Program-made: the position numbers and the translations under genes
Notes under the pieces: generated by a model
Seen by the model: the letters and a program-made list of their open reading frames with translations, nothing else
The model's database searches: none
Told to the model about the DNA's origin: nothing
Part shown: positions 23,162 to 42,066 of the stretch, in pieces
Layout of the letters: every line of letters starts with the position of its first letter
Position numbering within the stretch: position 1 is the stretch's first letter
DNA from: Salinigranum marinum
GTDB lineage: Archaea > Halobacteriota > Halobacteria > Halobacteriales > Haloferacaceae
Direction of reading: 5' to 3'
Length of the DNA: 64,000 nucleotides
NCBI RefSeq assembly: GCF_024228675.1
Contig: NZ_CP100461.1
Coordinates: forward strand, 248,001 to 312,000

Positions 23162-23230
23162 ACACTGCATCTCGAGGAACGCCTGAAGCTTCGTCTCGAC
23201 GGCGGGCGCTTCGGTTCGACTCTCGCTCAC
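23162..23230 (-). pseudogene. 5' fragment of the split YlbF-like gene
   Basis: A GTG overlaps the arsA stop codon (GTGA) and opens a frame MSESRTEAPAVETKLQ, FLEMQC, which stops at the IS boundary. The coupling with arsA and the composition show it to be the start of the YlbF-like protein whose remainder lies at 21742-22089. Confidence 0.55.
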
Positions 23231-25161
23231 GACGCCGTCACCTCCTCGTGTTTCTCCTCACGGACGCCAGCCAAGCCAGCAATCACCGCACCGAACGAGC
23301 GGAGTTCGTCCAGCCCAACCGGTTCGTCTCGTCGAAGCGGTGCGAGCATCATCGGCGCGTCGAACCGGTCGCTGATCTCGTCGAGGTACCGTTCCTGCTG
23401 GGCACGACGGTTCTCGAAGAAGGCGTTGTCACCGTACTCCTGGGGAAGGAGGTAGTTTGCCACGACTAGCGAAGTCTCGATACCGACTTGATCGCGCAGG
23501 TCTTCCGCCGCCCGGTACGCTTCCATCATCGGTGTATACTCGGGGTACATGACGAACGCGAACGTGCTCTTGTCGGGGTTCTGCATCGTCTCGATCACGT
23601 CGTCGTACTTGCCTTCCTTCTCCGGTGCAGCCCCTTTCGTCAGCGACCCGAGGTCCATGAAGCCCTTCCAGTCCGACGGGAGTTCGAGCAGTCGGAGCGT
23701 GTGACCGGTTGGTGCGGTGTCGAAGACGACCACGTCGTACCCGTCTTCGTCGAAGTAGCTGACGAACTTCTCGAGCGCCGCCATCTCTTCGGCACACGGC
23801 GACTCCAGTTCTTCCTCGACGTTCTGGATTGCGGCGTCGACGTCGATGGCGTCGTCGTCTCGCTCCTCGTACATCTCGGTGACGTGGTCGAGAACGTTCG
23901 TCCGGTACTCCTCGAGCGCCTCCTCCTGATCGATACGGGCCGCGTCGAGGTTCTCCTGCCCGACCGACGTGGGGTCGTGACCGACCGGTTCCTCGAAGAT
24001 ATCTTCCAAGTGGGCTGCCGGGTCGGTCGTCACGACGAGCGTCTCGTAGCCTCCTTCGGCGAGTGCGGTCGCCGTCGTCGAGGCGATAGTGCTCTTTCCG
24101 ACGCCGCCCTTCCCAGTGAAAAAGAGGTACCGTGTCCCGTCGACCGGTTTCAATTGTTCTGCAACGGCATCGGGGTCGGTGAGTTTATTCAGGTCCACCG
24201 CACGCCCGTCCGTCGTCGCGTCGGGTGCTGTCCCGACATCGACGGTGGCGTCCTCACCGTCGTAGAGGACACCGCCGACGTCCGAGAGCAGGTCGAGCCC
24301 GGTGATCTCGCCCGGCTGGAGCGGATAGGTCGCGAGGGCCTGTTCGTCGAACGTCGCGGCGACGCGGTCGATGACCGACTGTTCGTCCGCGCGCTTCCCC
24401 TCGAAGAAGGGGTCTTCACAGACCGACTCCGGAAGATAGCCGTTGACGACGAGCAGCTGAGATTCGATTCCAAGGTCGGCGAGGTCTGCGGCACTCCGTT
24501 CGACCTCGTCGATCGAAGAGGCTTCGGGCTTGCCGACGAAGGCGAACGAGGTTCGGTCCTCGTCTTGGAGCGTCTCTATGGCACGCTCGTAATCGGCTTT
24601 CTTGTCCTCCATGGAGGCTGCTGGACCGATACACGTCGACCCGCCCTTTTCGAGTTCCGCGTTCCAGTCAGAAGGGAGTTCCATCAGGCGGATGGTGTGT
24701 CCGGTCGGTGCAGTGTCGAAGACGACGACATCGTATTCAGGGCTGTCCATGAAGTCGACGAAATTGTCGAAGGCGGCGATCTCCTCGACACATGGACTGT
24801 TGAGTTGCTCCTCGACTGTTTCGAGGTGCTCGTCGTCGAGCAGTTGCCGCATCGGCTCGATCGTCTCCTGGCGGTACTCCTCTGCGGCGGCGTCCGGGTC
24901 GATTTCGATGGCCGAGAGGTTTTCGACCTCGTCGATTCCCGTAACCTCGTGACCAATGTTCTGGCCAAAGATGTCGGAGAGATTCGGCGCTGGGTCGGTC
25001 GTCACCAGCAGTGTGTCGTAGCCGTTGTCGGCCAGCCAGGTCGCAGTCGCACAGCTGACGGTACTCTTGCCGACGCCGCCTTTTCCGCTGAAGAAGACGA
25101 ACTCAGTCGCTTCGTCCGTCGGTTCGACGACCGCGCGGGCGTCGGTCAGTGTGGCGGTCAT
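23227..25161 (-). CDS. arsA: Arsenite/antimonite efflux ATPase ArsA
   Basis: A 644-residue protein with two homologous ATPase halves. P-loops GKGGVGKST lie at about residues 26-34 and 348-356. DTAPTGHT signal-transduction motifs occur in both halves. Metalloid-site Cys candidates are in NSPCVEEI and GSTCIGP in half 1, and ESPCAEEM in half 2. It starts at MTATLTDARAVV; the longer frame reads through arsD in another frame. In bacteria ArsA energises the ArsB pump and receives As(III) from ArsD; no arsB is in this window. ATGA overlap with arsD shows an operon. Confidence 0.92.
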   Translation of the reverse strand: MTATLTDARAVVEPTDEATEFVFFSGKGGVGKSTVSCATATWLADNGYDTLLVTTDPAPNLSDIFGQNIGHEVTGIDEVENLSAIEIDPDAAAEEYRQETIEPMRQLLDDEHLETVEEQLNSPCVEEIAAFDNFVDFMDSPEYDVVVFDTAPTGHTIRLMELPSDWNAELEKGGSTCIGPAASMEDKKADYERAIETLQDEDRTSFAFVGKPEASSIDEVERSAADLADLGIESQLLVVNGYLPESVCEDPFFEGKRADEQSVIDRVAATFDEQALATYPLQPGEITGLDLLSDVGGVLYDGEDATVDVGTAPDATTDGRAVDLNKLTDPDAVAEQLKPVDGTRYLFFTGKGGVGKSTIASTTATALAEGGYETLVVTTDPAAHLEDIFEEPVGHDPTSVGQENLDAARIDQEEALEEYRTNVLDHVTEMYEERDDDAIDVDAAIQNVEEELESPCAEEMAALEKFVSYFDEDGYDVVVFDTAPTGHTLRLLELPSDWKGFMDLGSLTKGAAPEKEGKYDDVIETMQNPDKSTFAFVMYPEYTPMMEAYRAAEDLRDQVGIETSLVVANYLLPQEYGDNAFFENRRAQQERYLDEISDRFDAPMMLAPLRRDEPVGLDELRSFGAVIAGLAGVREEKHEEVTAS

Positions 25162-25493
25162 CGCGAGGCCTCCTGGGGCTGCGTGTGGTCTTCGAGGATG
25201 GATTCGAGTTCGTCGTAGCCGAGATACTCGGACTTTCCGACGATTTCGTCGTCGACGACCGTGATGGGGAGAATCGACGGTCCGTGCGCTTCGACGAGGT
25301 CGGCGATACGCTGTGTCTGGAGGAACTGGTCGATGTCGTGTTGCATGTTCGCTCGCGAGACGTCGACGTCTTCGAACGCCGCCTCTAACTGGTCGAGGGC
25401 GGCGCTGACTTCGACGAGTTCGTCGTCCGGGTCGGGTCCGCAGACGCCGGTGGAACAACACATCGCTTCTTCGTACAGGGTGAGTTCGGTCAT
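25158..25493 (-). CDS. arsD: Arsenic metallochaperone ArsD
   Basis: A 111-residue protein with the essential CC pair in YEEAMCCSTGVCGPD (residues 12, 13 and 18, exactly the E. coli ArsD positions) and a thioredoxin-like fold (LPITVVDDEIVGKSEYLGYDE). It delivers As(III)/Sb(III) to ArsA and may also act as a weak repressor. It is the first gene of the leftward operon arsD-arsA-ylbF-like-Cys tail. Confidence 0.92.
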   Translation of the reverse strand: MTELTLYEEAMCCSTGVCGPDPDDELVEVSAALDQLEAAFEDVDVSRANMQHDIDQFLQTQRIADLVEAHGPSILPITVVDDEIVGKSEYLGYDELESILEDHTQPQEASR

Positions 25494-25718
25494 TGCTGAC
25501 AGTGAGTCGCTCGTTCAATTGTTTTGATACATGACGGGACCATGGAGTGGACAGTGGGCAGATATTTTCTCAAGTACATCTGAAGATTTGTTCAACTAAC
25601 TGTTAAGCCCTTTGCTTTGGATTCTTCTCGTCTGTCATGACCGGAACGGCCTGAAAGACGAGAAATAGGACGATAGCGACTCTACACAGATGTTCTTCTG
25701 GGTCAGCGTCCGGACGAT

Positions 25719-25738
25719 ATCTTAGAAATATCTAAGAT
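25719..25738. promoter_or_regulatory. Palindromic operator in the arsR-arsD intergenic region
   Basis: atcttaga (25719-25726) and tctaagat (25731-25738) form a perfect inverted repeat with a four-base AT spacer. It lies 75 bases upstream of arsR and in the shared region with the divergent arsD. A dimeric ArsR would fit such a site, so control of both genes is inferred. Confidence 0.55.
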
Positions 25739-25812
25739 GACTTCAGAACAGATACTGAACCTTCGGAACTCGCTCCACAACGCTTAATCCCGTATCTGTT
25801 CAACCGTAGCGC

Positions 25813-26205
25813 ATGTCATCGACCGAGCGACTGCAGCGATATCTCGCAAGCGAACGGGGTGAGTGCGGTGATGGTGAGGTCACCGAACGACTAGCCGAAC
25901 TCGAAGAATGGGACGAGATCGCTGGCGGCCCAAATCTCGAAGAGGATGTCGGGGTGCTCTCAGCACTCGCCAACGAAACTCGGTACAAGATCGTCCGCAT
26001 TCTCCACGTGGCTGAGGAGGAACTCTGTGTCTGTGAGTTCTCTCCACTTCTCGACGTCAGCGACAGCGCAATAAGTCATGCCCTCTCCCAGCTCACAGAC
26101 GCCGGGTTACTCACCCGTCGAAAGGACGGGAAGTGGCGCAAGTACCGGGCTACGCCGAGAGCGAACGCTGTTCTCGTTGCACTCGACGGCTCACGGAAGT
26201 TGTGA
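25813..26205 (+). CDS. arsR: ArsR-family metalloregulator
   Basis: A 130-residue protein. The winged helix covers about residues 45-115: LSALANETRYKIVRIL, the As-binding motif ELCVCEF (two Cys spaced as in ArsR), recognition helix VSDSAISHALSQL, and wing TRRKDGKWRKYRATP. It is divergent from arsD-arsA, the usual ars arrangement. On binding As(III) it would release the shared operator. The N-terminal 40 residues, with CGDGE, are an extra acidic extension seen in some haloarchaeal ArsR proteins. Confidence 0.88.
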   Translation: MSSTERLQRYLASERGECGDGEVTERLAELEEWDEIAGGPNLEEDVGVLSALANETRYKIVRILHVAEEELCVCEFSPLLDVSDSAISHALSQLTDAGLLTRRKDGKWRKYRATPRANAVLVALDGSRKL

Positions 26206-30689: not shown

Positions 30690-30983
30690 TCATCCGATCC
30701 GTCCGATCGACTCAAGCCCGGGGACCTCGGCAAGGCGCGCTCTCAGCTCCGAATCACCCATCGGTGTAAGCCACCGAAGAGTGATTCCGACGGTGATGAT
30801 CGTGGCCGAAAGCTGTGGCTCGATACTGTGCAGTTCGTCGATCGATACGTCATCGATCTTCCTGGGCTGTGAGAGACGCTCCTCGGCGTTGGCGACGAGG
30901 TCACCGTCCGCGCCGCAGGGGATACGGATCGTCACGACAGCCGTTGTCGTCGGTTCTGGGTCGTTGGTGTGGAGTATCGCCAT
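30690..30983 (-). CDS. 97-residue protein downstream of the Ro/TROVE gene
   Basis: Starts MAILHTNDPEPTTTAVV. It has beta strands TAVVTIRIPCG and LSATIITVGITLRW around an acidic helix (NAEERLSQPRKIDD, SIDELHSIEP), a small alpha-beta fold of ferredoxin-like type by appearance. It follows the Ro/TROVE gene and a tRNA-like element on the same strand (70 bases after the latter), so it is likely co-transcribed. No family recognised; a role with RNA or with the Ro protein is only suggested by position. Confidence 0.6.
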   Translation of the reverse strand: MAILHTNDPEPTTTAVVTIRIPCGADGDLVANAEERLSQPRKIDDVSIDELHSIEPQLSATIITVGITLRWLTPMGDSELRARLAEVPGLESIGRIG

Positions 30984-31052
30984 AATCTAAACTCCGTTGA
31001 GGAGCACCTCACGGGCTTCACGGGCTGGGTGTGCCACGGGCTGTGCTCCGAG

Positions 31053-31125
31053 TGCGCGAGGGACGATTCGAACGCCCGTCTCGGTCGTGGCCCGACCGCG
31101 TGTTACCGAATTACACTACTCGCGC
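31053..31125 (-). tRNA. tRNA-like element, Gly(GCC)-like, lacking U33
   Basis: A full cloverleaf is possible: acceptor GCGCGAG/CTCGCGC, D-stem GTGT/ACAC with GG in the loop, anticodon stem CGGTC/GACCG, T-stem GGGCG/CGTCC with loop TTCGAAT, discriminator A. The anticodon loop is GGGCCAC, so position 33 is G instead of the universal U and the anticodon would be GCC. It lies 27 bases after the Ro gene stop, on the same strand. Confidence 0.6.
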
Positions 31126-31151
31126 TCGAGAAAGAACACACAAAGAAACCG

Positions 31152-32681
31152 TTATGTGGGCTCGAATGCGTCGATATCGTCGATGACCTGCATCGGGTTC
31201 TCGGCGTGCGTGATGAACGAAAGGACGGTCTCCGACCAGCCAGAGACGTTGTAGACGTTCTCGTAGCCCTCCGGCGTCACCAAGTCGCCGTAGGATGCGA
31301 GGTCGACGAGGTACAACGCAGTGTCGGACGCAACCTCGTCCCGATAGGCGTCAAACGCCGTCTTGACCGTCTGGTCATCGCGCGCCGTGAACGGCGTGCT
31401 GTCCCAGATCTGCATATCGGTGATGACGACGATGCGTTCGACAGGCGCACCCCGCTCACGAAGGTGCTCCAGTGGCTTCCATCCGTTCGTCGAGTTCCCG
31501 ACGTCCTCGTCGATGGCCAGCACCGCCGCTTGGCGCTGCAGCACTGGCGTGTCGACGTGCATCGGAACGGTCTGGAAGTCGTCACCGAAGCCACCGACTT
31601 CGGCACCCTGGTCGGCGAGGATCGCACCGAACAATGCCCCGATCTCCTTGAGCCTGAGCGTGCTGTGCGTGGATAGTGGGTGGCCCATCGACCCCGACAG
31701 ATCGACGGCGACGAACGTGTCGCCGAATCCATCAGGCACCGTCTCGACCGCGACGTCGATTGCGTCTTCCAGCCATCGTTCGACTGCGGGAGCGTGGACA
31801 TCTGCGGCCTGAAGCGCAGTGTACGCCTGGTAGTACCGGAACGGGTACAGCGGGGCGTGGCGCACCGCCTCCAGATCGAGGTGGCTCACGACGGTGTCTT
31901 CGTCAACGCCGGCTTCGAGCATGTTCCGAAGGTTCCGGATCGACGCGAAGATCGGCAGCGTGTACGCGTCGTCCTCGATGAGCGTTTCCCAGGCGTCCCT
32001 GGTGTTGCCGCGCTCGGAGATGACTGTCTCCCACGTGTTCGGCGACGGCAGTGGGTCAACGTCGGGATAGTCGTCAAGGCCGCCGCACACGAACCGCTCG
32101 AACAGGACGTCCTGCTCGTCATCAACGGGCTCGGGATGGACTCGATTGAACACGTCGTGCAGCGTCACCTCGCGTCGTGACAGCTCGTACTTGCCGAGGG
32201 TGTACGCGTCGGCCATCGAGACGAGTGCGTCCTCGATACCGCGTCGAAGCGGCCACGGGGCAGTTCCGCCGAACAGCTGGTCGTGGATCGCGAGGGCAGT
32301 CGCCGTCTCGTCCATCCGCTGGATGATCGCCGGTGCCCACTCGCGGATGAGCGACTCGGGAGAGTCGTCCTTGAACCGGTCGTCGTTGGCTGCCAGTACG
32401 AGCAGGACTTGTGGGATGTCCCGTAGATGGAGTTCCTGCCGCGCGTACGCAGCGAGCTTCAGGACGAACTCCGGGTCCTCGTCTGCCGCGGCATCGAACC
32501 GTCGGACGACAGCAGCGAGTTGTTCGTCATCGGCCTCGTAGAACGAGCCCTCCAGCAGTTGGTTGATCGTGCGCTTGTACAGTGCGAGTCGGGGGTCGGC
32601 AGGCTCGAACGCTTCCCCACCTTCGTCGTTGGTGGTTCGCGTCGCCTCCGCGACCGTTTGTGTTGGCTTGTTGAATTCCAT
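31152..32681 (-). CDS. Ro60/TROVE-domain RNA-binding protein
   Basis: A 509-residue protein. Residues 25-335 form the HEAT-like TROVE ring (DPRLALYKRTINQLL, DPEFVLKLAAYARQELHLRD, LPSPNTWETVISERGN, ASIRNLRNMLEAGV). Residues 335-505 are a von Willebrand A domain with an intact MIDAS (AVDLSGSM, and IVVITDMQIW). Ro proteins bind the ends of misfolded RNAs in the ring and tRNA-like Y RNAs on its outside. Starts at ATG 32681, 69 bases after a tRNA-Arg. It lies inside a same-strand array of tRNA-like elements, which may be its RNA partners. No rtcB is seen here. Confidence 0.9.
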   Translation of the reverse strand: MEFNKPTQTVAEATRTTNDEGGEAFEPADPRLALYKRTINQLLEGSFYEADDEQLAAVVRRFDAAADEDPEFVLKLAAYARQELHLRDIPQVLLVLAANDDRFKDDSPESLIREWAPAIIQRMDETATALAIHDQLFGGTAPWPLRRGIEDALVSMADAYTLGKYELSRREVTLHDVFNRVHPEPVDDEQDVLFERFVCGGLDDYPDVDPLPSPNTWETVISERGNTRDAWETLIEDDAYTLPIFASIRNLRNMLEAGVDEDTVVSHLDLEAVRHAPLYPFRYYQAYTALQAADVHAPAVERWLEDAIDVAVETVPDGFGDTFVAVDLSGSMGHPLSTHSTLRLKEIGALFGAILADQGAEVGGFGDDFQTVPMHVDTPVLQRQAAVLAIDEDVGNSTNGWKPLEHLRERGAPVERIVVITDMQIWDSTPFTARDDQTVKTAFDAYRDEVASDTALYLVDLASYGDLVTPEGYENVYNVSGWSETVLSFITHAENPMQVIDDIDAFEPT

Positions 32682-32749
32682 ACTATCATTTGGAGCCGCA
32701 ACAGGCGACTCCGATACCGGTGCTACTCACACGACGTGCGAGCAGCGAA

Positions 32750-32824
32750 CGTCCCCGACACGATTCGAACGTGCGGCACCCGGCTTCGAAGGCCGGTGCT
32801 CTGTCCTACCTGAGCTACGGGGAC
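32750..32824 (-). tRNA. tRNA-Arg(UCG)
   Basis: Canonical fold: acceptor GTCCCCG/CGGGGAC, D-stem GCTC/GAGC, anticodon stem CCGGC/GCCGG with loop CTTCGAA (U33 present, anticodon TCG), T-stem GCACG/CGTGT with loop TTCGAAT, discriminator G. It looks more like a bacterial or viral tRNA than the usual haloarchaeal tRNA-Arg. It is the last array member before the Ro gene. Confidence 0.85.
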
Positions 32825-32832
32825 ACGGACGT

Positions 32833-32852
32833 GGCCGGAAAACTGTTTGAGC
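32833..32852 (-). repeat. Array leader motif, copy 1
   Basis: On the minus strand the stretch preceding tRNA-Arg reads with core ACAGTTTTCCGG. The same core precedes the elements at 32950-33030 (33029-33051) and, as TCAGTTTCTCGACC, at 33109-33184 (33181-33198). A repeated leader upstream of each unit suggests unit duplication or a processing or promoter signal. Confidence 0.45.
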
Positions 32853-32949
32853 CTGGACAGCGTGCTACCAGATCACACGACGGGAGGAGAGGGATTCCAC
32901 CACCGGAAGACGCAAGCGTCTTCGGAGCCCTGCCTCGCTTTCGCTCGGC

Positions 32950-33030
32950 AGGACGGCGGGATTCGAACCGAACGTCCGGCTCTTGAGGCGAAGGATGGCT
33001 CCACCTCGACGGCCACGGCATGAGTGGCGG
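32950..33030 (-). ncRNA. Degenerate tRNA-like element
   Basis: A T-loop (TTCGAAT, 32961-32967 on the complement) and a Leu-like loop CTCAAGA are present, but the T-stem has mismatches and no acceptor stem forms. Its middle part shares CCGTCGAGGTGGAGC with the next element (CCGTCGAGTTGGAGC), and it has the same leader, so the two are relatives in different states of change. Confidence 0.4.
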
Positions 33031-33108
33031 CGACCGGAAAACTGTCGGAGCGGGATCCGGTGTCGAGAGCACCCTCGTGCTCTCTTTGTCCGGGGTGTTC
33101 TCGATGGA

Positions 33109-33184
33109 TGGGACCACCGACAGGATTTGAACCTGCGAGTTCCTGGCGAAGCAACGCTCCAACTCGACGGTCGCCACGGGCGGT
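33109..33184 (-). ncRNA. tRNA-like element with encoded CCA and aberrant anticodon region
   Basis: Acceptor ACCGCC(C)/(C)GGTGGT, T-stem GCAGG/CCTGT with loop TTCAAAT, discriminator C and an encoded CCA. The 39 bases between acceptor and T-arm do not form normal D and anticodon arms. Instead CGAGTT/AACTCG or GGCGA/TCGCC pairings are possible. It resembles a tRNA half (minihelix) carrying an alternative arm. Confidence 0.45.
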
Positions 33185-33193
33185 CGAGAAACT

Positions 33194-33253
33194 GACGGTG
33201 CGATGGGCTATGACTCCCATTGTGGGCCTTGCGGGCTGAAGGAACGCACCGTC
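33194..33253 (-). ncRNA. Structured 60-nt element in the tRNA-like array
   Basis: A perfect nine-base stem gacggtgcg/cgcaccgtc (33194-33202 and 33245-33253) encloses two small hairpins (CCTT/AAGG and CCCA/TGGG on the minus strand). The result is a compact junction without a T-loop consensus. Confidence 0.4.
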
Positions 33254-33348
33254 TCGCCGACTGTCCGCTGGGGGGAACCGACAGCAAGCGCGTACCGATC
33301 CGTGTCGCTACCTCAATGGTACGACGCTGTCCACTGTCGATTCCCGAG

Positions 33349-33425
33349 TGCTCCCGAGGGGAATCGAACCCCCCGAACTCCAGTTCGAAGGACTGGCGTC
33401 TCTCGCCAACGGAGACTCCGGGAGC
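33349..33425 (-). tRNA. tRNA-like element, Glu(UUC)-like, with C33
   Basis: Full cloverleaf: acceptor GCTCCCG/CGGGAGC, D-stem GTCT/AGAC with TTGG in the loop, anticodon stem CCAGT/ACTGG, T-stem GGGGG/CCCCT with loop TTCGATT, discriminator A. The loop is CCTTCGA, giving C at position 33 and a nominal TTC anticodon. The D-arm and flanks match the element at 34740-34815, so the two are paralogues. Confidence 0.6.
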
Positions 33426-33498
33426 AGCTTCGTCAGTCAGATGTCACGAGGGAGACACCGGCATCGGTACTCAAATCACGGTCGAAGAGAGCACGGGT

Positions 33499-33903
33499 TT
33501 ACCGAAGGCGTTCGAATCCTTCGAGTCGCCCGTGCGTGAACGTCACCTGGTACGTGACCAGTGAATCGAGTTCCTCGAACGAACGAGTGATCTCGAATCG
33601 GCCGTGGTAGTCGTCTCGTTCGTTCCAGCCATCGTGGATTCGTTTGCGACATCCAGCCATATAGCGGAAATCTCCCTCGTCGACGTCGTCTCGGTTCGCG
33701 TATGGTCGGTCCTCGGGCGGCACGTCTTCGTAGTGCCACTCCGCTTCGAGGAGTCGACCGTCCGCCGTGATTCGAAACGTCGTCATACGTGGTCGGTCGA
33801 TACCTTTCGTTTGCCAGTCGACGTCCGCTGCCGGAGTGATCACGTCGGAATACTCCGGCAGATGGACATCATCGGCGAGTTCGACTGTGTCGAAGAGACC
33901 CAT
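33499..33903 (-). CDS. Virus-type conserved protein inside the tRNA-like array
   Basis: A 134-residue protein from MGLFDTVELADDVHLPEY; a longer upstream frame would cross the tRNA-Met and was rejected. The opening MGLFDTV, then VDWQTKGIDRPRMTTFRITADG and late RKRIHDGWNERDD, is the layout of small hypothetical proteins common in tailed phages and haloviruses ('MGMFD...WQTK...Y.it.dGrL'). Its function is unknown. It starts 12 bases after the 3' end of tRNA-Met. Its presence supports a viral origin for the array. Confidence 0.65.
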   Translation of the reverse strand: MGLFDTVELADDVHLPEYSDVITPAADVDWQTKGIDRPRMTTFRITADGRLLEAEWHYEDVPPEDRPYANRDDVDEGDFRYMAGCRKRIHDGWNERDDYHGRFEITRSFEELDSLVTYQVTFTHGRLEGFERLR

Positions 33904-33915
33904 CGTTGTCCTCCA

Positions 33916-33986
33916 TTGCGGGACCAGGAGTCGAACCTGGACCTCAGGGATATGAGCCCCGTGGGCTAACATTACCCCATCCCGCA
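33916..33986 (-). tRNA. tRNA-Met(CAU)
   Basis: Canonical: acceptor TGCGGGA/TCCCGCA, D-stem GGGT/GCCC, anticodon stem CGGGG/CCCTG with loop CTCATAT (U33, anticodon CAT), T-stem CCAGG/CCTGG with loop TTCGACT, discriminator A. Met versus an Ile tRNA with a modified C34 cannot be told from sequence alone. Confidence 0.85.
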
Positions 33987-34015
33987 GCGCGGGAGTCAGG
34001 CCAGAAATCGGCCAG

Positions 34016-34140
34016 TGGGACGGGCAGGATTCGAACCTGCGTGTTCTCGGGAACAGCGAGATGAAGAACCTCTCGCCGTCGCACCGGGTTTCCGGTGAAA
34101 ATCCGGCGAGAGTGTGAACGCCAGGCTCTTCGGCCGTCCC
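34016..34140 (-). ncRNA. tRNA-like element with class II variable arm and large hairpin insertion
   Basis: Acceptor GGGACGG/CCGTCCC, T-stem GCAGG/CCTGC with loop TTCGAAT, variable arm TGTTC/GAACA, anticodon-like arm GCGAGA/TCTCGC with a nine-base loop GGTTCTTCA. Between the D region and this arm lies a 43-base hairpin with a nine-base stem CTCTCGCCG/CGGCGAGAG and an inner CACCGG/CCGGTG. This could be a non-standard intron or an added RNA domain. Discriminator A. Confidence 0.5.
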
Positions 34141-34144
34141 GCAG

Positions 34145-34216
34145 TCTCCTCGGCACGACTCGAACGTGCGTCTCCTCCTCTACACGGAGGTGTCGTCGCC
34201 GCTAGACCACGAGGAG
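34145..34216 (-). tRNA. tRNA-Tyr(GUA)
   Basis: Acceptor CTCCTCG/CGAGGAG, D-stem GTC/GAC, anticodon stem CCTCC/GGAGG with loop GTGTAGA (U33, anticodon GTA), T-stem GCACG/CGTGC with loop TTCGAGT, discriminator A. It is separated from the previous element by only four bases, a spacing typical of viral tRNA arrays. The first pair C-G matches archaeal tRNA-Tyr identity. Confidence 0.8.
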
Positions 34217-34219
34217 CCG

Positions 34220-34301
34220 TGCTGCCGCGAGGATTCGAACCTCGGTCCCGTGCAAACGAGGCACGGAGCGTCGCCCGCTGGACGACCGAGCGTTCGGCAG
34301 T
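34220..34301 (-). tRNA. tRNA-like element, Thr(CGU)-like, with insertions
   Basis: Anticodon stem CGTGC/GCACG with loop CTCGTTT (U33, anticodon CGT), T-stem CGAGG/CCTCG with loop TTCGAAT and D-stem GTCG/CGAC are sound. The acceptor pairs only six of seven (A-C at the first pair). The spacers between acceptor and D-stem (eight bases) and between D-stem and anticodon stem (four bases) are too long for a standard tRNA. Confidence 0.5.
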
Positions 34302-34349
34302 TGAGTATCTGTCTCGTTGATCATCGATCTGTACGACTGGCTCCGACTG

Positions 34350-34452
34350 CGCAACCACGGCTAAGTAGCCCCGGTTGCGTGTCTCATCGCAGGGGCGTAC
34401 TTCGGGTAATCCCGGGAATACCACACCGGACCATGGAGGTTGCAGACCCTGC
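34350..34452 (-). ncRNA. Two structured degenerate elements of the array
   Basis: 34350-34379 is a perfect seven-base stem (cgcaacc/ggttgcg) with an inner ggct/agcc helix. 34389-34452 is a 64-base unit closed by GCAGGG/CCCTGC and containing a near palindrome around cccggg. Neither has a T-loop. They lie between clear tRNA-like elements and may be decayed members. Confidence 0.35.
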
Positions 34453-34739
34453 CGGGCCCGTCACCGCCGATGCGACCCCGAACGGTCGAACCGGCGGAGT
34501 GTGCCTCCCTCGATGAGTATCCCCACGTGGCTAGACCACGCGTCCACACCGTCGGAATGCGTCCGACGAGCACCCGGTCGGCTTTGCCTCCCGAGTACGC
34601 CAGGAGACTCAGGCCGCTCGTCGCCGGAGCCCAGCCTCGCTCTGCGTGGCTGGACCGCCGTCGGGAGTTCACCCCCGAATCACGATCACGGCCGTGACAG
34701 GGCCGGATGCTCGTTGGATCACACCGCGTCGGTGTGCAG

Positions 34740-34815
34740 TCGCCCCGGCCGGAATCGAACCGGCGACCTCCGGATTCAACCTCCGGCGTCCCTCGCCAGC
34801 GGAGACTCCGGGGCT
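34740..34815 (-). tRNA. tRNA-like element, Gln(UUG)-like, with G33
   Basis: Acceptor AGCCCCG/CGGGGCG (first pair mismatched), D-stem GTCT/GGAC with CTGG in the loop, anticodon stem CCGGA/TCCGG, T-stem GCCGG/CCGGC with loop TTCGATT. The loop GGTTGAA gives G33 and a nominal TTG anticodon. A paralogue of 33349-33425. It is the first recognisable member of the array in the direction of transcription. Confidence 0.55.
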
Positions 34816-36883: not shown

Positions 36884-38372
36884 CTGTCTCTTACCCACAA
36901 ATCCTATCGCCGTAGTTCGCGGAACGTGTTGCCAAGATGCAGAGCGGTTCACGAAGCCGGCGGACTGATCTAGCCGAAGCGGAGCTGTGTCAGACGGATG
37001 TCTCTGGCACGGTTCGCAAGGAGTTTCAGTCTGCTGAGTTTGGTGATGAACGGCTTACTGACCGATTGATGCAGGTCGGCGATCGGCTCGGCAGGGCACC
37101 TGCCGAGTCGATCCCCAACGCCTGCGAGGACTGGGCCTCCACAAAGGCTACGTACCGATTTTGCGATAACGAGCGTGTGGACCCAGACGAGATTCTCTCC
37201 GCCCACGCGCGAGAACAACGCTCACGCGTCGATGACAACGAGGAACTCCTCGTTGTCTCTGACACGACTGAGCTCGTGTTCCCGAGACATCCGTCCAAGG
37301 AGGGACTCGGTGACATCGGCAACTCTACGACGGATCTCGAAGGTGTCAAGGTTCACTCGACGATCGGAGTCGATCCACAGACACATCGCATGACTGGGGT
37401 CATCGATCAGCAGTCGCTGATCGAGGACCAACAGGCCAGCACCAAACACGACGCGAATGGGAAGGGTGAGCGGATCGAATTAGAGAGCGAACAGAAAAAA
37501 TGGATTCGAGGGGACAGGCAAGCCAGCGACTGGCTTGCCGAGGAGATTCGACCGATATTCATCCACGACCGAGGAGCTGATGCATTTGCGTTCTACCGCG
37601 AAGTTACAGACGAGCTGGACGCTGGATTCGTCGTCCGGGCGAATCAGAATCGCTGTATTCAGACGCCGTCCGGAACGGACGGGCGTCTGATTGACTGGAG
37701 TGAAGACCTCCCCGAACAAGGTCGCACGTCGATAGAGATCGAACAAGGAAGTGGAAGAGCAGCTAGAGAGGCTGAGCTGATCGTCAAAGCCGGCTCGTGT
37801 GAGCTACTTCCACCGCAGAACGATCTAACTCACACCGAGCCAGTCGAGGTAAACGTCGTGCGGATCGACGAACGTGGAGAACAAGACGACCCGATTCAGT
37901 GGGTGTTACTCACCACTGAATCGGTCGTTGCGTTCAGTGATTCGCTGAGTGTGATAGAATCTTACCGCGCTCGATGGACGATCGAAGACTGGCACAAGGT
38001 GCTGAAGACTGGATGCCGGATCGAGGAACGCCGACTGGAAACGTGGGAGCGCATGGAGGTCTTGTTGAGTGTCTATTCGGTAATCGCGTGGAAGGTGCTG
38101 GAGTTACGGGAACTTGCTCGGGGAGACACACACTGCTCACCTGATGTCCTTCTGAGCGAGATTGAACGGTCAATTCTGGAAACGAAATTTCCAGAATTGA
38201 CCGACAACGGGGCTCAAGCGTACGCAATTGCGATTACGAAGATCGGCGGCTACCTTGACCGAGGCTCCGATCCACCGCCCGGTTGGGAGACGATTTGGAA
38301 AGGCCTCAAGAAACTTCAGACCTGGGCGGAGGGATACGAACTGCGCTCCTGAGACTTATGGGTAAGAGACAG
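36884..38372 (+). mobile_element. IS4-family, Tn5/IS50-like insertion sequence
   Basis: Perfect 14-base terminal inverted repeats ctgtctcttaccca at 36884-36897 and its complement at 38359-38372 bound a single transposase gene; length 1489 bases. The first ten bases equal the Tn5/IS50 outside end. No matching nine-base target duplication was found in the flanks, so a rearrangement after insertion is possible. Confidence 0.85.
36937..38352 (+). CDS. Tn5-like transposase (IS4 family)
   Basis: An intact 471-residue protein. Tn5 features: N-terminal EFGDERLTDRL and KATYRFCDN, first catalytic Asp in VVSDTTELVF (about residue 108), second in FIHDRGADAFAFY (about 210), and the exact YREK signature in YRARWTIEDWHKVLK (about 345) that holds the catalytic Glu. 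The C-terminal helical region LPPQ-type tail ends GWETIWKGLKKLQTW. The enzyme cuts at the IS ends through DNA hairpin intermediates. All key residues are present, so it is likely active. Confidence 0.92.
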   Translation: MQSGSRSRRTDLAEAELCQTDVSGTVRKEFQSAEFGDERLTDRLMQVGDRLGRAPAESIPNACEDWASTKATYRFCDNERVDPDEILSAHAREQRSRVDDNEELLVVSDTTELVFPRHPSKEGLGDIGNSTTDLEGVKVHSTIGVDPQTHRMTGVIDQQSLIEDQQASTKHDANGKGERIELESEQKKWIRGDRQASDWLAEEIRPIFIHDRGADAFAFYREVTDELDAGFVVRANQNRCIQTPSGTDGRLIDWSEDLPEQGRTSIEIEQGSGRAAREAELIVKAGSCELLPPQNDLTHTEPVEVNVVRIDERGEQDDPIQWVLLTTESVVAFSDSLSVIESYRARWTIEDWHKVLKTGCRIEERRLETWERMEVLLSVYSVIAWKVLELRELARGDTHCSPDVLLSEIERSILETKFPELTDNGAQAYAIAITKIGGYLDRGSDPPPGWETIWKGLKKLQTWAEGYELRS

Positions 38373-40652: not shown

Positions 40653-41028
40653 ATCTCATCATACGTGTTCATACATTATAACTGATTATTCTTAAGGGTA
40701 CTACTATACTGTAACGACCCCCATTTAAGTAGAGTTTATATGCTCTCGATCGCTCTGAGAGGGCTCTTGATGACGCACAGCTAGTGGTCACTACGGGGAG
40801 ATCGAGGCCCCCCGAACGCGGGTTGACCCATCGCTCTCCACACGTTGTGTCGAAAAGTCGAACGATATCCGTTGGGGAGAGTTCGGAGACTATTGGAAAT
40901 GATATGTAATTCATAGAATCCGGTAAAATTGCTTTCGTACCCCTCTTCGCCGGTTATACGAATATCATATTCTGTATTTTCACGCACAGCGTTTTATATC
41001 AAAAATCAAAACTCTGGTGATAGAGATA
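40653..41028. promoter_or_regulatory. Intergenic with promoter of the PTPTET protein gene
   Basis: AT-rich and without genes. tttatat (40992-40998) lies about 31-37 bases before the ATG at 41029, the position of a haloarchaeal TATA box for a leaderless or short-leader transcript. Confidence 0.5.
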
Positions 41029-42066
41029 ATGAGTCGAAAAGACGCTGCGAACGGCCCTTCTGCAGAGAGGGGCGACACCGACGACTCTGTTCGGCTCAAA
41101 ATCGGTCGGCGTGGACTTCTCTCTCTCGTTGCTGCTGTCGGTGCGGCCTCCGCCGGCGTCCTCAATTTTGGACAGACCGATGACCAGACGTCACAGACGA
41201 CTTCCACCCCGGAGTCCTTTGGGTATGGTGGCCCAGTAACGTCAACGACAGACACGCCCAGTTCGCCGACGCCCACCACGACAGCGACAGCTGGGAGGAC
41301 TACCAGTTCCGACCGGACGCCGAGTCCGTTTCCGACCCAGACAAAGACTCCGGTCGCGACGTCGGCTGTTACGTCAACCGCGACTCCAACGTCGGAACCG
41401 TCCGGAGTACCATCTGCCGGAGGTGGTGGCGGTGGTGGTGGTGGTGGCGGAGGCGGTGGTGGCGGTGGGCCAGTTGAAGAAACACCGACCCCGACTGAGA
41501 CGCCTACGCCAACTAAGACACCCACGCCGACCTCGACCGAGACGCCCACACCAACTGAGACACCCACGCCAACCTCGACCGAGACGCCCACACCAACTGA
41601 GACACCCACGCCGACCCCGACCGAGACGCCTACGTCTACTCCAACCGAGACACCCACCCCGACCCCGACTGAAACGTCCACACCCACCTCTACGCCAACT
41701 AAGACGCCTACGACTACACCGACTGAGACACCCACCCCGACCCCGACTGAGACTCCTACTCCAACACCAACCGAGACACCCACCTCAACTCCAACCGAGA
41801 CACCTACGTCTACCCCAACCGAGACACCTACGTCTACCCCAACCGAGACACCTACGTCTACCCCAACCGAGACACCCACCTCAACACCCACGCCGACTGA
41901 AACACCCACACCTACGCCAACCGATACACCGACTCCCACGCCGACCCCGACTGAAACGTCCACACCCACGCCGACCGAGACGCCTACACCCACCTCAACC
42001 CCAATTCCAGATGACGACTTCGGTGAGTTCGGATACGGCGAAGGTGGATTCGGCGGCACGGTCTGA
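41029..42066 (+). CDS. Tat-exported protein with long PTPTET stalk
   Basis: A 345-residue protein from [16 protein letters not shown] twin-arginine signal ([19 protein letters not shown], about residues 25-45) precedes a Thr/Pro/Ser-rich region, a run of about 17 Gly, and about 170 residues of (P-T-P-T-E-T)-type repeats. The last 20 residues are [16 protein letters not shown], an ending also seen in haloarchaeal secreted proteins. The stalk is a natural O-glycosylation target and would stand rigidly off the cell. No enzymatic domain is present. Start chosen from the TATA spacing and the RR motif. Confidence 0.75.
41478..42005 (+). repeat. Tandem [12 protein letters not shown] codon repeats
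   Basis: About 88 two-residue steps (Pro-Thr, Glu-Thr, Ser-Thr, Lys-Thr) in tandem, with synonymous codons varied, so the protein repeat rather than DNA slippage alone is kept. Identical 24-base blocks recur at 41800-41875, indicating recent expansion. Confidence 0.8.

Follow-up and report, generated by a model that had tools for sequence, protein, structure and literature searches.

In bacterial Y RNAs, which are encoded beside the gene of the Ro protein Rsr, DusA and TruB modify the tRNA-like domain, which also tethers PNPase (PMC8394870), and a circular permutation of tRNA has been reported for one of these RNAs, 6CU1 (PMC11472068; PMC8394870). For Salmonella YrlA, a decoy role of this domain against a tRNA nuclease was suggested (PMC7790460). 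Jumbo phages combine Ro/TROVE with RlaP and ligases, a set that has been proposed to counter tRNA cleavage (PMC7824862), and TROVE is also carried by Borg elements (PMC11208441). In archaea, TROVE genes were found in 20 of 29 tRNA clusters, in a mobile-element context and, in the part of the paper available, with no mechanism given (PMC6333295). Here we analyse such a locus in Salinigranum marinum, a Ro60/TROVE gene within an array of tRNA genes, together with the predicted structured RNAs encoded beside it. It lies in a stretch of 64,000 nucleotides of contig NZ_CP100461.1, hereafter the window.

Judged from sequence comparison, a Ro-type protein, covarying module RNAs, a same-strand array of divergent tRNA genes and a conserved 97-amino-acid protein are encoded together. 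The locus is probably a horizontally spread archaeal Ro-Y ribonucleoprotein cassette tied to tRNA supply or repair. The original prediction, made from the window alone, knew of no described archaeal system of this kind; co-location of TROVE with tRNA arrays had already been published in 2019 (Morgado and Vicente, PMC6333295). What is new here are the Y-type units, a hybrid RNA and a five-armed tRNA beside archaeal Ro genes; no description of archaeal Y RNAs was found in the open-access literature searched.

Ro genes and one-strand tRNA arrays

The TROVE protein of the window matches PF05731 (E 1.4e-20) and PF25045, vWA_Ro60 (E 5e-7). Its AlphaFold2 model reached template modelling (TM) scores of 0.62-0.73 against solved Ro60/Rsr structures, and Foldseek matched it to 9kop (E 4e-21), 1yvp (E 6.5e-14) and 2nvo (E 3.5e-13). 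The protein thus combines the TROVE and vWA domains with the Ro fold, as Ro60/Rsr proteins do.

We searched 391 Halobacteria genomes, one per species, among which relatives are not independent. TROVE is present in 44 of them, spanning 23 genera. Forty-seven regions of up to 20 kb around TROVE genes were retrieved, and array features were counted on 48 oriented TROVE loci. Identity to the window TROVE is 75-92% in most loci and about 50% in three. Nearly all of these genes come last among the protein genes of a tRNA array on their own strand: the 48 loci hold 625 tRNAs on the TROVE strand versus one on the opposite strand, with a median of 14 and a maximum of 31 tRNAs per array. The array order Gln(ttg)-Asp(gtc)-Pro-Ser-Leu-Tyr-Glu-...-Glu(ttc)-Arg(tcg)-TROVE-Gly(gcc) is conserved, and all 20 isotypes are represented in the array of locus L087. 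The synteny, on whose recurrence the original prediction depended, is therefore widespread across haloarchaea. Both plasmids and chromosomes carry copies, in many genera of haloarchaea, and two copies occur in some genomes, which indicates that the cassette is mobile.

In the window, ARAGORN called seven tRNA genes in 31052-34815, every one on the minus strand like TROVE, and three of them passed the Rfam gathering score; with lowered thresholds the program returned noise on both strands. Ten same-strand T-arm-like sites had been proposed to form an array of tRNAs and tRNA mimics made together with a Ro protein. About 11 such sites do belong to the array, but taken by itself the short T-loop motif carries no significance, occurring within 14 kb 14 times on the TROVE strand and 16 times on the opposite one. 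It is the called cloverleaves, and their conservation among loci, that establish the array. Real tRNA genes, mimics and a conserved unit are all present; most elements, however, are tRNA genes. The mimics form a distinct set of one to five Y-type RNAs and a hybrid RNA: the sites near 33133 and 32969, which are no tRNAs, lie in Y-type units and that near 34037 in the tRNA-like hybrid.

The array tRNAs have no close chromosomal copies, as the original prediction also required. They are 61-81% identical to the chromosomal isoacceptors of the window genome and 72-93% identical among arrays. Their 7-bp acceptor stems are kept, as are most isotype signals, such as G73 in 39/39 Asp, C1:G72 in 31/32 Tyr and G3:U70 in 8/12 Ala genes (versus 3/559 of other isotypes). 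These stems, the isotype signals and the divergence together suggest a divergent, largely intact tRNA set and not a row of copies, although not all of these tRNAs need be chargeable. A change in the anticodon loop, conferring resistance to anticodon nucleases, was considered as the main theme of the array; by eye, some loops differ at 37-38 and others are identical.

The array might consist only of mobile extra tRNAs that benefit codon usage or growth, with Ro as a chance companion that acts elsewhere with its RNAs. Clusters without TROVE exist, to judge from the 20 of 29 reported in the available part of PMC6333295, and at locus L109 TROVE stands without any array tRNA called by ARAGORN. Against this, nearly all haloarchaeal TROVE genes found sit in a one-strand, order-conserved array, and the hybrid RNA physically joins tRNA and Ro-stem parts. 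We therefore regard a chance association as unlikely.

Y-type units and their association with Ro

The 400-1000 nt that separate tRNA-Arg from the last array tRNAs before it hold one to five tandem non-tRNA units, which ARAGORN does not call. Each unit starts with an 8-bp outer stem (GGUGRCCG/CGGYCACC type), a 5' UCGA, a 9-bp inner stem and UUCCUUC, which lead into a core; after the core follow the other strand of the inner stem, a 3' rNUUUUC and that of the outer stem. In some units the core is a plain hairpin; in the others it holds a T arm, either alone, together with two hairpins, or combined with a capped acceptor-like stem and a D arm.

Among 49 distinct units, 98.3% of the cells of 17 pairs were paired, compared to 79.0% in shuffles and at most 59% in slid controls; the first percentage is inflated, since a pairing filter was applied in collecting the rows. 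By itself this filter does not create the observed variety of pair types. Both sides changed in 14 of the 17 pairs, and 169 double-change cells were counted where 44 were expected (0/500). Paired ends and a conserved stem broken by an internal loop, the hallmarks of Y RNAs, are thus evident from the covariation of both stems and the conserved loop letters. Unit 2 of the window was recovered by a strict pairing search (9/9 and 8/8 pairs) and has a fold z of -3.8. For unit 4, RNAalifold on 14 homologues gave two stems, a T arm, a D arm and a capped acceptor-like stem in which CG/GC, GC/AU and UA/CG exchanges are compensatory. The circularly permuted tRNA-like arms (T, acceptor, D) of the bacterial type of Y RNA are therefore predicted in unit 4, while the other units include a T arm or a plain hairpin only. 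An alternative reading of unit 4, a circularly permuted tRNA gene that has yet to be spliced, was rejected, as the would-be anticodon region is the stem module common to all units.

The covariance model R1, whose training excluded the window and L109 rows, was run genome-wide. At E<=8e-9 it matched 41 of the 44 genomes with TROVE and not one of the 347 without; nine of the latter gave weak matches that lack a core (E 2e-5 to 8e-4). The three TROVE genomes missed are divergent, and in each a unit whose outer stem is shorter lies upstream of TROVE, at a distance of about 80-170 nt (E 9e-7 to 7e-6). Being encoded with a Ro gene, as Y RNAs are, hence applies to 41/44 genomes genome-wide and to three more at the locus. 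At L109 the unit (R1, 51 bits) persists without the array. That the units are decayed tRNA genes or functionless repeat hairpins is scarcely credible: the window copies are partly decayed, but the stems covary around conserved loops and the units are absent from the 347 genomes without TROVE.

The tailed haloarchaeal virus HGTV-1 (Halogranum tailed virus), the kind of genome in which the original prediction advised looking for the synteny, encodes a Ro protein as well. A motif scan found exactly one unit in its 125 kb, just upstream of TROVE; in controls the scan gave 0 hits in 147 kb of chromosomal sequence and 1 in 2.5 Mb of shuffled sequence. This short Y-type unit (L171, 11888-11980) is absent from the annotation of the record. 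R1 found nothing significant in HGTV-1 or in the IMG/VR contig L128, and the motif scan of L128 was also empty. The RNA-repair nucleotidyltransferase RlaP is encoded 3' of TROVE in HGTV-1 and inside or near four arrays. Further genes of the virus are those of RtcB, RNA ligases and a CCA-adding enzyme, besides many for tRNAs.

In L109 and HGTV-1 a unit ends shortly before TROVE, and a conserved hairpin abuts the TROVE start codon. Both would fit units that are cis-acting elements of the TROVE mRNA leader, for autoregulation by Ro or by tRNA-like folding, instead of separate Y RNAs. We find this improbable. Up to five tandem units extend up to about 1 kb from TROVE with a canonical tRNA-Arg in between, their tRNA-like cores vary between units, and the acceptor stem of the five-armed tRNA described below is intact, as for processed ends.

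Hybrid and five-armed tRNAs and a possible role of the cassette

The hybrid RNA of the array has homologues at 25 loci; its structure is supported by the consensus fold, and its fold z is -4.2. Its predicted opening is opposite to that of unit 4, the arms of a tRNA being wrapped around the stem module. Outside Halobacteria, TROVE was found in five genomes, all of one archaeal family. Four of these encode, directly upstream of TROVE, a tRNA of about 125 nt that has acceptor, D, anticodon and T arms and, between the D and anticodon arms, a fifth arm that repeats the stem module and ends in UACUUC. Within the family, full-length matches to a model of this RNA (131-154 bits) are restricted to these four genomes and the rest are plain tRNAs (<=58 bits); as the model was built from the same four genomes, only the absences elsewhere count as a test. 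Model R2 returned mostly ordinary tRNAs, and only its full-length matches are informative. The fifth genome (L192) has two units of the permuted kind upstream of TROVE (fold z -2.6 and -2.9). In one of them, arms of the anticodon, T and D type can be read by eye; for the first unit, the fold of minimum energy agrees only in part with the tRNA-like one.

True introns are present in haloarchaeal tRNAs, and ARAGORN models the inserted stem as an intron. An ordinary archaeal intron at a non-canonical position is nevertheless a very doubtful account of the hybrid and five-armed tRNAs. In motif and internal loop, the insert agrees with the stand-alone units and not with a bulge-helix-bulge, and full-length copies occur only in the TROVE genomes of that family. 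Moreover, one host of the five-armed tRNA has a separate normal tRNA-Thr(UGU), which the RNA resembles most closely once the insert is removed (78%), so that the insert is not needed as the intron of an essential gene.

The predicted order of arms in unit 4 is the circular permutation of tRNA described for the bacterial Y RNA 6CU1. As predicted from these folds, two circular permutations of the shared RNA exist, opened either at the acceptor stem (the five-armed tRNA) or at the Ro stem (the order of bacterial Y RNAs). We know of no explanation for the resemblance of bacterial Y RNAs to circularly permuted tRNAs. Both permutations are found beside Ro genes, even within one cassette, and the origin of Y RNAs is therefore directly testable. 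The five-armed tRNA could represent the missing link that connects Y RNAs with tRNAs. A wider proposal, which we put forward tentatively and hold to be somewhat less than evenly probable, is that archaea retain this link: one five-armed RNA (acceptor, D, Ro stem, anticodon, T) would exist in both forms, with the Ro arm capped or opened there with the acceptor capped, and would travel in a mobile Ro cassette with a divergent tRNA set as a spare, guarded supply in tRNA-cleavage conflicts.

The shared stem module is a predicted Ro-binding site, and the RNAs would therefore be archaeal Y RNAs. Once bound by Ro, they may recruit or decoy tRNA-handling enzymes through their tRNA-like ends, while the array would supply spare tRNAs, with bodies unlike those of the host, when host tRNAs are cut. 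Jointly, this could keep translation going, or control tRNA quality or repair, under tRNA damage by viruses, toxins or stress. The spare-tRNA part in particular has, in our estimate, a little under an even chance. The genetic surroundings of Ro would point in the direction of tRNA supply and repair.

Several observations, besides the pairing filter, weigh against a Ro-Y cassette tied to tRNA supply or repair. Many haloarchaea do without the cassette, discriminators are altered in the array Gln, Arg and Lys genes, several array tRNAs are decayed, and the PADLOC anti-phage defence models gave no match. In L087, none of the Y RNA families of Rfam was matched up to E 10. The units, with an 8-bp stem and a 4/7-nt internal loop, do not reproduce the vertebrate Ro site, a 7-bp helix with a bulged C and a 3-nt bulge (PMC4726728); bacterial Y RNAs have been reported as highly divergent from vertebrate ones.

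Features of the locus and comparison with known systems

The array in the window is a partly decayed copy, whose tRNA-like Thr(cgt) gene is probably degenerate (Table 1). Homologues of the 134-amino-acid protein are mostly 71-84% identical, and most are encoded inside arrays; the majority of recurrent array open reading frames are translation artefacts of structured RNA. A fold search with the 97-amino-acid protein gave generic ferredoxin-like matches only (E>=1.5e-3, TM about 0.46).

Table 1 Genes and predicted RNA elements of the TROVE locus, in window coordinates
Feature	Position	Strand	Basis and remarks
97-aa protein gene, 3' of tRNA-Gly	30690..30983	-	homologues at 41/48 loci; ferredoxin-like fold predicted
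tRNA-Gly(gcc), directly 3' of TROVE	31052..31125	-	ARAGORN; 40 calls across 48 loci
Ro60/TROVE gene	31152..32681	-	509 aa; helical ring and vWA domain; metal ion-dependent adhesion site (MIDAS) DxSGS intact
Conserved hairpin, 5' of the TROVE start codon and abutting it	32692..32712	-	alignment of upstream regions
tRNA-Arg(tcg), last tRNA 5' of TROVE	32749..32825	-	ARAGORN; Rfam 60.8 bits
Y-type unit 4, insert at 32904-32955	32830..33017	-	partly decayed; orthologous position and motif
Y-type unit 2	33029..33175	-	8-bp outer and 9-bp inner stems intact; core T arm and two further hairpins
Y-type unit 1	33179..33265	-	inner stem intact, outer partly decayed; R1 44.9 bits, E 8.5e-11
Conserved long hairpin, same segment	33273..33345	-	complementary ends GGGAATCGACAG/CTGTCGGTTCCC; role uncertain
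tRNA-Glu(ttc)	33348..33425	-	ARAGORN; 44 calls across 48 loci
134-aa protein gene between tRNA-Met and tRNA-Glu, family without assignment	33499..33903	-	homologues at about 20-21 loci
tRNA-Met(cat), initiator-like G:C-rich anticodon stem	33916..33986	-	ARAGORN; Rfam 61.6 bits
Hybrid RNA	34016..34140	-	tRNA acceptor and T arms around capped Ro-type stem and anticodon-like hairpin
tRNA-Tyr(gta)	34144..34216	-	ARAGORN; Rfam 51.9 bits
tRNA-like gene called Thr(cgt), in the Pro(tgg) slot of other arrays	34221..34288	-	ARAGORN; array order
tRNA-Gln(ttg), first gene of the array, also first in most arrays	34739..34815	-	ARAGORN

A non-coding stretch of about 200 nt, GGGUCUGCAACCU...UUCCCGGG...GAAGUACGCCCCCG, lies between the tRNA-Asp and tRNA-Pro positions (window 34310-34560, minus strand). 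It is kept in distant arrays, at -2355..-2105 in L064, -3886..-3680 in L087 and -3605..-3405 in L063 from the TROVE start. It is neither a tRNA nor a stem-module unit, but a putative further RNA of the cassette. Several array RNAs are broken up by related hairpin-rich inserts (CCUGCC..GGCAGGGCUC / GUCAGAG..CUCUGACGAGCCCU), located at 32904-32955 in the window, at the same site in L087, in tRNA-Arg of L070 and L105 and in a tRNA-like gene of L063; these are possibly introns or small mobile elements.

About 2 kb beyond the array, an IS4-type transposase (PF14706, PF01609) is encoded on the plus strand (36937-38352), which fits mobility. An arsenic resistance cluster is found near the cassette at 23227-26205, with an ArsA-like double ATPase, an ArsD-like and an ArsR-like protein recognized by eye from their translations. 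A low-complexity frame at 40980-42066, with TPTETPTPT repeats and a poly-glycine run, resembles a cell-surface spacer protein.

The haloarchaeal tRNA clusters of PMC6333295 are, as far as the available part of that paper goes, the same kind of loci as the cassette; the Y RNAs, the hybrid RNA, the 97-amino-acid partner and a mechanism are not named in that part. For the RNA-repair sets of jumbo phages, the available part of PMC7824862 describes no archaeal array or five-armed tRNA. HGTV-1 resembles the cassette in that its TROVE, 44% identical, is closely preceded by one unit and in having RlaP and many tRNAs, and differs from it in being a virus genome whose tRNA clusters do not adjoin TROVE and whose single unit is short. 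From the bacterial Rsr-Y RNA systems (Deinococcus RYPER; Salmonella rsr-yrlBA-rtcBA) the cassette is set apart by being archaeal, by one to five units per locus, by its same-strand tRNA array, by the un-permuted five-armed form and by a different internal loop, and no RtcBA operon or PNPase gene was noticed at the locus. What it has in common with them is a Ro gene beside stem-plus-tRNA-like RNAs and, in unit 4, their permuted order.

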